A stretch of 64,000 nt of DNA from NCBI GenBank assembly GCA_902622955.1, contig CACNRP010000002.1, positions 53,502-117,501 on the forward strand, written 5' to 3'. The translations under genes and the position numbers were made by a program. Positions 34,467 to 39,006 of this stretch are shown here, in pieces. Below the pieces are notes generated by a model, which saw nothing but the letters and a program-made list of their open reading frames with translations, did not search any database and was not told the origin of the DNA. This DNA comes from an uncultured Pelagibacteraceae bacterium (GTDB lineage: Bacteria; Pseudomonadota; Alphaproteobacteria; Pelagibacterales; Pelagibacteraceae). Every line of letters starts with the position of its first letter. The first letter of the stretch is position 1.

Positions 34467-34922
34467 ATGGAATCAATAAAGAACTGGATGAGAGATGCTG
34501 CAAACATTTTGTTTGATGATAGTAAAAATGATCTTCGTGCACTTCCCAAAACAGTTAGATTACAAATACTTTTGGTTTTAAGTTTTATTTGGACTACAGT
34601 TTTTAGTTTATATGTTTTTTCTTATACAACATTTGCATTTGGATGGGCTGGACTTTTTTTAGCTCACATTGGTTTAATATTTGCTGTCTACATGACATTT
34701 AAACAATTTCATAGAGCAGAAGCGAAGTCCGCAAGTGTTTTTCAAACAAAAAATTTTGATCCTTTTAAAATAATGGTGATCGTTTTTGTAATTGTATTTA
34801 TTTTTGTTTTTTCAAAAGGAATAGAGGTTTTAACAAGTCCAAACCCAAATTCTTATTCAATCCCATATGACGGTCCCTTAAAATCAGCAATTGAAAAATG
34901 GCTACCATTTAGTAAAGATTAA
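34467..34922 (+). CDS. Conserved membrane protein of unknown function
   Basis: Three predicted TM helices. Confidence 0.6.
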   Translation: MESIKNWMRDAANILFDDSKNDLRALPKTVRLQILLVLSFIWTTVFSLYVFSYTTFAFGWAGLFLAHIGLIFAVYMTFKQFHRAEAKSASVFQTKNFDPFKIMVIVFVIVFIFVFSKGIEVLTSPNPNSYSIPYDGPLKSAIEKWLPFSKD

Positions 34923-34924
34923 CA

Positions 34925-35305
34925 ATGGATAATATTACAAAAAACTTACAGTTAGCTTTGATGTGTATTATTCTGGTGAGTACAGTTATTGCTGTTGGAA
35001 TTGAAATAAAAAATATGTTCACAAACCAATCAGTTACTCTAGCTGACTTGCTTTTAATGTTTCTTTATTTAGAAGTGCTAGCAATGGTTAGAGTTTTTTG
35101 GAACCAGCAATCAATTAGTATTACTCTTCCACTACTTATTGCAATTACGGCTCTTGCTCGATTTATAATCTTACAAGGTAAAGAGATGGACCCAACTGCA
35201 CTTGTGTATGAAGCAGTTGCTATTTTGTTAATAGCTGCAGCGATTGTTGTTTTAAGGTTGAGACACAGTGATAAATTAGGTCTGAAGAAAAAAAAATCGA
35301 AATAA
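34925..35305 (+). CDS. Phosphate-starvation-inducible PsiE family protein
   Basis: LLLMFLYLEVLAMVRVFW, four-TM. Confidence 0.75.
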   Translation: MDNITKNLQLALMCIILVSTVIAVGIEIKNMFTNQSVTLADLLLMFLYLEVLAMVRVFWNQQSISITLPLLIAITALARFIILQGKEMDPTALVYEAVAILLIAAAIVVLRLRHSDKLGLKKKKSK

Positions 35306-35314
35306 TTAAAAATT

Positions 35315-36451
35315 ATGTTTGAAGCTTCAAGGGCTAAGGCCTTAAATAAATTAGATAATTTTGTTGAAAATAACCTTGCAGAATATTCAAGATTAAGAAA
35401 CTTTGATTATGGACCTGAAAAAAGATCAAATGTATCTTGTTTATCACCATATATCACTCATGGAATAACTAATGAAAAAGAAGTCATTCAGAAAGCGCTG
35501 AGTAAATTTTCTTTTTCAAAAAATGAAAAATTTATTCAAGAAGTTCTATGGCGAACTTATTGGAAAGGCTGGTTGGAACTAAGACCAAATGTTTGGACAG
35601 ATTATCTTGCTGAATTAAATCAAATAAAAAATGAATTTCAAAATAATCAAAACTATCTTTCTGCAATTGATGGGAAAACAGACATTGAGTGCTTTAATGC
35701 TTGGGTTAATGAGCTTAAAGATTACAATTATTTGCATAATCACACAAGAATGTGGTTTGCTAGTATTTGGATTTTTACTCTAGAATTACCTTGGCAATTG
35801 GGTGCAGAATTTTTTATGCAACATCTCTATGATGGAGATGCTGCATCAAACACTCTTGGATGGCGATGGGTTGCAGGTGTTCAAACGCAAGGAAAGCATT
35901 ACCTTGCTAGTGAATGGAATATTAAAAAATTCACTAACAATAGATTTCAAAATATAAAATTAAATGAAAATGCACCTCCAAAAATTTCAGAAAAATCTTA
36001 TCAAATAATTAAACAGAATTTCAATAACCCACAAAATATTGAGAATAAGAATCTTTTAATTTTTGAAAATAATCTCTCATTTGAAATCACTGACTTTCAG
36101 GAAAAGAACTTTGAAAAAATTTACTTAGTTTCTAATAAAAATGAAAATAGATCCATAAAACTAAGTGAAAAATTGATGAAATTTAAATCTCAGTTAATAG
36201 AAGACCAAGGGCAAAGATTAAAAGATCAATCTATTGATTGCCAGGTTGTAGACATAAGTGAATTAACAAAAATTGAAAATTGTTATGGTTTATATCCAAC
36301 AGTAGGTGAAAATTTAGATTTTTTAAATTCGAATAATTTAAAGATAGATTTTTTATATAGAAATCTTGATCAATTGGCTTGGCAATACTGCAATAAAGGA
36401 TTTTTTAATTTTAAAAATTATATTCCCAAAATAGTTTCGACTTTTAATTAA
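35315..36451 (+). CDS. Photolyase/cryptochrome FAD-binding domain protein with N-terminal FAD domain and C-terminal extra domain
   Basis: NVSCLSPYITHGI, FIQEVLWRTYWKGW, DGDAASNTLGWRWVAGVQTQGKHYLASEWNI. Confidence 0.87.
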   Translation: MFEASRAKALNKLDNFVENNLAEYSRLRNFDYGPEKRSNVSCLSPYITHGITNEKEVIQKALSKFSFSKNEKFIQEVLWRTYWKGWLELRPNVWTDYLAELNQIKNEFQNNQNYLSAIDGKTDIECFNAWVNELKDYNYLHNHTRMWFASIWIFTLELPWQLGAEFFMQHLYDGDAASNTLGWRWVAGVQTQGKHYLASEWNIKKFTNNRFQNIKLNENAPPKISEKSYQIIKQNFNNPQNIENKNLLIFENNLSFEITDFQEKNFEKIYLVSNKNENRSIKLSEKLMKFKSQLIEDQGQRLKDQSIDCQVVDISELTKIENCYGLYPTVGENLDFLNSNNLKIDFLYRNLDQLAWQYCNKGFFNFKNYIPKIVSTFN

Positions 36452-37390: not shown

Positions 37391-37519
37391 TTAGCTTAGC
37401 TTAGAACACTTCTTGGAACAATATTTTACTCTCTCCCAGTTCAACTTCCATTTTTTGCGCCAAGTAAATGGTCTTTTACAAATTGGACAAGTTTTGGTTG
37501 GTAAATTTTCTTTTTTCAT
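37391..37519 (-). CDS. DUF2256 zinc-ribbon-like small protein (42 aa)
   Basis: Not in ORF track; manual translation [46 protein letters not shown] overlap with upstream photolyase stop. Confidence 0.88.
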
Positions 37520-39006
37520 CAAATTGTATTTTGTTTAATAAATTTGTCAGCTTCTGATAAAATTAATTTTTTTCTCTCAGATTTCATTTTATCAAATATC
37601 CTTACCATCATAGATAGGCGAGGATTTTTTAAAAAAAATTTTCTGTTTCGGTCTATAAACCTCCAATAAAGGCCATCCATTGTGTTACACCACTCCCCTT
37701 TTTTAAAATCCATCATTTTCATAAAGTATGCAGATCCACAAATGTAAGGTTTAGTTGCAAAAATTCCTCCATCATTAAATAGTCCCATACTAATATTTGG
37801 AACCATCACCCAATCTGAAGAATCAGCAAACATTTCCATAAACCACTTATAAACAATTAATGGTTTGATCTCACAAAGGTTCATAATGTTTGATAAGATC
37901 ATTAATCTTTCAATATGATGTGACCATGCATGATTTACCGCATTTTTAATTGCGTAATCTAATGGTGGAAGACCAGTTGATCCCTCATACCAAGAAATTT
38001 TCATTTTTCTATTATGTTTAAAAAAATTTCCATTTTCAATTTCTTGTGAATACGACTGATAAACTCCTCGCATAAATTCTCGCCATCCGATTACTTGGCG
38101 AATGTAACCTTCTAAAGAGTTCATTCTAATTTTATTTTTTTTATGAAATTCTAAAACTTTTTGAATTACAAATTCAGGGGTTATTAAACCTAAATTTATA
38201 TAAGGACTCAATGCACTATGAAATAGGATATTATCTTTTTGATCAACTGCATCTTCATAATCACCAAATAAATTTGATTTTTCTTTTATAAAAAAAATTA
38301 AAAGTTTGACAACATCATCGTATTCTGTTGCAAACCAAAAGTTGTCTGTACTTCCAGGATGATTTTTAAATTCTTTTTCAATAAGAGGCTTTAATTTTTT
38401 TGTGTGATTTGTTTCATTAATTTTTGGAAATTTAGGAATTGAAATATCTTTTGGTAATTTATTTCTATTATCTTCATCAAAACTCCACTTACCTCCAATA
38501 GGATTACCATCTGAGCCCATCAATATTCCAGATTTTTTTCTAACTTCCTTGTAGAAAGTTGCCATGAATGGTTTTTTTGATTTTGATAAATAATTTTTAA
38601 ATTCTTCTCTAGAATTTAAAAACATAGGAGTTTGAACAATATTCCAATTTATTTTTTCTTTTCTTAAAAATTTTGAAATCTTTTTTTCAAAAAATTTATC
38701 CTCTACTTCAAAACTTGAAATTTCTTTTATTTTTTTTTGTGTGATTATTTTTTTTAGTTTTTTTAAATAATCATCACTAAATTCTTTATCTTCAATTTTA
38801 AGATAATCTAATTTAAATTTATTTTTTCTTAACCCATCTGCATAAGATCGCATTGAAGATAAAAATAATAAAATTTTTTTCTTATGATGCTTTTCATAGG
38901 TGCATAAACCCTTATCTTCAGCCATAAAAAACAGGTGGTCTTTTTTGAAGCGGTCTAGGTATTTTGTTGGAAATAATTGATTACCAAGTATAAAAAATAA
39001 CTTCAT
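37519..39006 (-). CDS. Cryptochrome/photolyase-related protein (FeS-BCP, PhrB-like)
   Basis: [74 protein letters not shown]. Confidence 0.92.

Follow-up and report, generated by a model that had tools for sequence, protein, structure and literature searches.

A NewPHL-type photolyase with inverted domain order in SAR11 and its probably antenna-derived C-terminal domain

A 64,000-nucleotide stretch of DNA from an uncultured Pelagibacteraceae bacterium (SAR11; assembly GCA_902622955.1, contig CACNRP010000002.1), referred to here as the window, contains at 35315–36451 on the forward strand an ATG-initiated gene for a protein of 378 amino acids. Profile, PDB and homologue matches identify it as a NewPHL-type photolyase with inverted domain order. 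The FAD domain comes first and a Rossmann-like, antenna-type domain comes last, as the initial annotation had suggested and as is supported both by profiles and by the AlphaFold2 fold. In our judgement the protein is very probably a CPD photolyase of the NewPHL class, in which a C-terminal, probably antenna-derived domain most likely seals the FAD site. The inverted order is already described as NewPHL / Phr7, and the architecture is hence not novel; the antenna resemblance of the last domain is evidence beyond what PMC9426592 and PMC13274461 describe.

The N-terminal FAD-binding catalytic domain was located using Pfam, NCBIfam and PDB matches, and comprises residues 2–212 (35318–35950, forward strand). 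Residues 2–196 align with positions 201–396 of the class I NCBIfam model (E 3e-21), and residues 6–196 with residues 204–395 of E. coli photolyase, 1dnp (E 3.8e-16). It follows that the protein begins at the start of the catalytic domain, a point that had been read by eye from the sequence. Photolyase matches to the full-length AlphaFold2 model span about 200–220 columns. The Pfam FAD_binding_7 match covers residues 73–197 (E 1.1e-18) and only positions 1–127 of the 203 in the profile, so the C-terminal part of the canonical FAD domain, with its helices, is also missing. The usual N-terminal antenna domain is indeed lacking, as had been claimed: a Pfam search and inspection of the upstream frame, which is open for just 3 codons 5′ of the ATG, revealed no PF00875 domain N-terminal to the FAD domain, and none of 25 orthologues (this one included) has an in-frame antenna domain upstream, the frame extending there over 0–35 codons. 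The catalytic domain is followed by a poorly conserved linker (residues 213–242; 35951–36040, forward strand), for which AlphaFold2 predicts few secondary-structure elements, mostly at lower confidence, and then by a C-terminal α/β domain, the antenna-like “Z-domain” (residues 243–378; 36041–36448, forward strand), which was delimited using AlphaFold2, profile and fold comparisons.

We refer to proteins of this kind as long forms; in Alphaproteobacteria they consist of the FAD domain and about 145–195 further residues, and are more divergent than the SAR11 copies. All 47 long forms agree without exception at the positions equivalent to E. coli E274, W277, R278, N341, R344, M345, W359, D372, D374, N378 and W382. 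In the SAR11 protein these include, all on the forward strand, E76 (35540–35542), equivalent to the CPD contact E274; M146 (35750–35752), equivalent to M345 in the substrate pocket; N179 (35849–35851), equivalent to N378 next to the flavin N5; and W183 (35861–35863), equivalent to W382, the first tryptophan of the photoreduction chain. The outer tryptophan W306 is replaced by phenylalanine in the SAR11 protein and is mixed in other long forms, and photoreduction may therefore take another route. The Fe-S motif CxxC...C is absent from the SAR11 protein and from the other long forms checked; it is present in related loci L135, L136, L139 and L231. Given these conserved residues, and by analogy with the NewPHLs that have been characterised, the SAR11 protein should bind FAD and repair CPDs.

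NewPHLs have an inverted domain topology and repair CPDs in single-stranded DNA, the named members being A8LJA9, M7YZC8, Q2N8F4 and B6IPR5 (PMC13274461). The FAD domain comes first in NewPHL / Phr7, where it is followed by a C-terminal domain and where Phr7 occurs in Prochlorococcus, and also in the split phr4/phr5 and the fused phr6 (PMC9426592). As far as PMC9426592 relates it, the inverted-order class was already described in 2020 by Emmerich et al. The SAR11 protein resembles NewPHL / Phr7 in its N-terminal FAD domain, preceded by no antenna; in its additional C-terminal domain (about residues 243–378), which is equated with the Z-domain by position and description; in the absence of the Fe-S cysteines, as stated for Phr7; and in its occurrence in Alphaproteobacteria and marine picoplankton. 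We file it as a further NewPHL lineage, matched to the named NewPHLs by description only.

Several other groups share some of these features. The N-terminal antenna domain is also absent from the short photolyase-like proteins (SPL), reportedly those of Xu et al. 2021, and from Phr4/Phr5/Phr6. However, these are FAD-only, or have a clearer antenna domain as a separate gene or fusion; several SPL and Phr4/Phr6 proteins carry an Fe-S motif of four conserved cysteines that the SAR11 protein lacks; and SPL consist of the catalytic domain only, whereas the SAR11 protein has a C-terminal α/β domain as predicted by AlphaFold2. Class I CPD photolyases of the E. coli PhrB type share the catalytic domain and active-site residues, but their antenna is N-terminal, their FAD domain has the full C-terminal helices, and a branch with 100/100 support lies between. 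Among the solved structures listed, those of the prokaryotic (6-4) photolyases / FeS-BCP (CryB, PhrB) match the fold of the C-terminal domain best; these proteins have the normal order, with the DPRP-type domain N-terminal, and many have an Fe-S cluster.

The short and fused relatives offer a bridge to the canonical antenna. In Alphaproteobacteria, all ten FAD-only short forms found here are followed by an antenna-like (phr5-like) ORF of about 130–155 amino acids, here called P5. In all ten (L133–L140, L304 and L307) the P5 match begins close to where the FAD-only ORF stops, at most 8 bases before its stop codon and at most 14 bases after it. The two genes frequently overlap, which suggests translational coupling. 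Elsewhere P5 is fused C-terminally to the FAD domain, giving FAD-first, Phr6-like proteins on plasmids of Deinococcus (L231, L235) and Persicobacter (L232, L236); the Deinococcus fusions carry the CxxC...C motif. Profile comparison matches P5 to canonical antenna domains with 96.4% probability (P 1e-9), and three of nine P5 members have a PF00875 match (best E 3.6e-5).

In the FAD-domain tree, which is unrooted and in which long branches meet, the long forms make up one clade (support 100/99), with the short forms as their sister group, and the long, short and fused forms together are split from 37 canonical photolyases by the 100/100 branch. Since a P5 gene stands at the stop codon in all ten short forms found here, a single lineage may comprise the split and fused forms together with the NewPHLs. 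We give an even chance to the reading that SPL/Phr4 short forms, Phr6-like fusions and NewPHLs constitute one antenna-last lineage, in which a diverged antenna lies downstream, either encoded by a gene of its own that abuts the first, or fused to the FAD domain, or in the shape of the Z-domain.

The C-terminal domain is conserved in pattern, chiefly in the tail D-x3-W-x5-G-F-F-x-F-K-x2-I-P, with variations. Searches of Pfam, NCBIfam and PDB found no convincing sequence match to an antenna or other family. Using a shallow input alignment (41 rows, composed of the SAR11 protein and related-locus sequences), AlphaFold2 predicts for the domain alone an alternating α/β fold with five strands (pLDDT 81.5, pTM 0.73), and the full-length model (pTM 0.80) contains the same C-terminal elements. 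The region is thus predicted to be ordered and of α/β type, rather than disordered or of a non-Rossmann fold. The initial annotation had picked out antenna-like strands in order in this region, and this is largely borne out: predicted strands and helices alternate across residues 246–375, and in the profile comparison the first strand, LLIFENNLSFE, is paired with LVWFRxDLR, the first strand of the antenna, and the alignment is colinear onward.

Of the 50 matches that a Foldseek search of the C-terminal domain against PDB listed, CryB of Rhodobacter sphaeroides has both the top probability (0.99) and the top TM-score (0.51), and other prokaryotic (6-4) photolyases come next by TM-score. The N-terminal antenna is the sole α/β domain of matching size in CryB and the prokaryotic (6-4) photolyases. 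The E-values are weak, at 0.01–0.1, and eIF2B subunits, SDR and shikimate dehydrogenase appear among the same 50 matches with similar or better ones. Profile comparison with the plain antenna profile reached 31% (score 28.4), and block-swapped nulls scored up to 30.8. When antenna and P5 were merged, the profile matched the SAR11-type domain with 91.5% probability (P 8.8e-7), against 13.4% for Usp, which has the same broad fold class, and 0.4% for SDR, and column shuffles gave 5% at most. Block-swapped nulls of this comparison scored 42.5 versus 44.2 for the true order; being so close, they imply that the profile shows kinship of β-α units more than the exact order of elements. We consider it probable that the C-terminal domain is truly homologous to the antenna domain.

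An alternative to this conclusion is that a Rossmann-like domain unrelated to the antenna replaced the lost parts, its antenna likeness being convergent; the protein would still be a NewPHL-type photolyase. The absence of Pfam or PDB sequence matches to any antenna family, the competing eIF2B, SDR and shikimate dehydrogenase folds, and the block-swapped nulls that equal the plain antenna profile would all fit such a replacement. We nevertheless think it rather unlikely, given the gap between the merged antenna and P5 profile and the Usp and SDR controls, the leading position of photolyase relatives in Foldseek probability and TM-score, and the undisputed antenna-type domain, split or fused, at the equivalent place in relatives. 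An antenna-derived domain can in turn have been reached by different routes. The initial annotation had offered circular permutation or a replaced C-terminus, and of this the reversed order stands. A literal circular permutation, in which a canonical photolyase gene was duplicated in tandem and the outer halves were then lost, would explain why both domain types are kept with their order reversed, but the canonical FAD domain lacks its final portion here, C-terminal helices included, and we find this route improbable. The downstream antenna-like genes that abut the short forms, and the C-terminal fusions in other relatives, point instead to fusion of neighbouring genes, so that an origin by fusion in reverse order is no less likely than one by literal permutation.

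Two further readings concern the protein as a whole. A cryptochrome-like light sensor that has lost DNA repair would be compatible with the sequence; it is very improbable, because every long form retains the full set of substrate-contact residues and CPD repair has been shown for the NewPHLs that were characterised (PMC9426592, PMC13274461). The source genome is fragmented and 66.7% complete, which might raise the suspicion of a truncated gene or an assembly artefact; this reading, to which we attach a negligible probability, is refuted by the conservation of the gene at full length, as follows.

Full-length copies with 52–93% identity to the SAR11 protein occur in 25/61 sampled genomes, counting its own; one of the 25 consists of a single contig and has a listed completeness of 100%. 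At least 80 further loci in other single-cell genomes and MAGs have full-length ORFs of 377–382 amino acids. GTDB contigs contain 590 related stretches, and the best 80 of these all carry the name Pelagibacteraceae or Pelagibacterales. More widely, a manual reading of matches placed the long form in 21 of 289 evenly drawn alphaproteobacterial genomes, and the domain order is therefore common to SAR11 and other Alphaproteobacteria. Ruegeria, Novosphingobium and Niveispirillum, which belong to the same family or order as sources of the named NewPHLs, have the long form; in the phylum sample none was found outside Alphaproteobacteria. A viral origin was considered and rejected: relatives are absent from viral contigs, and matches in phage records are limited to the FAD domain at 25–30% identity.

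Upstream of the photolyase gene lie an ORF resembling a membrane protein (151 amino acids; 34467–34922, forward strand), taken from the ORF list and syntenic in SAR11, and a PsiE-family gene (34925–35305, forward strand; Pfam PsiE E 2.7e-18, supported by synteny), which ends 9 bases before the photolyase start and is probably co-transcribed with it. Downstream on the reverse strand, Pfam and synteny identify a small zinc-finger-like DUF2256 gene (43 amino acids; 37391–37522) and a prokaryotic (6-4) photolyase-type gene with DPRP and FAD domains (37519–39006). These two genes overlap at the start of the (6-4)-type gene and occur together in SAR11 loci. By eye, the (6-4)-type protein seems to lack the CxxC Fe-S ligand pair, as is reported for Prochlorococcus PromaPL. 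In the 70 SAR11 loci with full flanks, argG is upstream in 69 and psiE in 58, and within 3 kb downstream DUF2256 is found in 45 and the (6-4) photolyase-type gene in 41.

Genomes with the long form contain other photolyases: a (6-4) photolyase-type gene was found in 40/41 and a PF00875 protein in 41/41. The companion is adjacent to the long form in few genomes (the (6-4) type in G594; the PF00875 protein in G188, G610 and G466). The SAR11 NewPHL works alongside other photolyases and does not replace them. A photolyase-like protein of about 490–560 amino acids, whose PF00875 match is confined to the first ~125 profile positions, adjoins the fused or long form in L232, L236, G188, G610 and G466, and in L232 and L236 it sits downstream of the FAD+P5 ORF. 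On plasmids of Ruegeria sp. TM1040 (L233) and Peteryoungia desertarenae (L238), an AarF/ABC1/UbiB kinase-family gene adjoins the long form.

We propose that the N-terminal domain binds FAD and that light-excited, reduced FAD would pass an electron to the cyclobutane pyrimidine dimer. The dimer is probably in single-stranded DNA, CPD specificity and single-strand preference both being carried over from the characterised class. The C-terminal α/β domain most likely closes over the FAD site, taking the place of the missing C-terminal helices; the abstract of Emmerich et al. 2020 (Nucleic Acids Res., doi 10.1093/nar/gkaa1147) reportedly states that the C-terminal domain seals the FAD site. This domain may or may not bind a light-harvesting pigment. 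As to its origin, the simplest account, which has no need of a literal permutation, is that adjacent FAD and antenna genes were fused in that order, the antenna part then changing strongly in the NewPHLs.

Inverted-order photolyases are widespread in SAR11, which is among the most abundant bacterial groups of the surface ocean. The link with P5 is relevant to the proposed descent of the photolyase family from short photolyases that have no antenna. If the arrangement is general, these supposed ancestors would not lack the α/β domain, which the next gene would encode. The link between the Z-domain, P5 and the ordinary antenna makes gain, loss and re-ordering of the antenna in photolyases testable.
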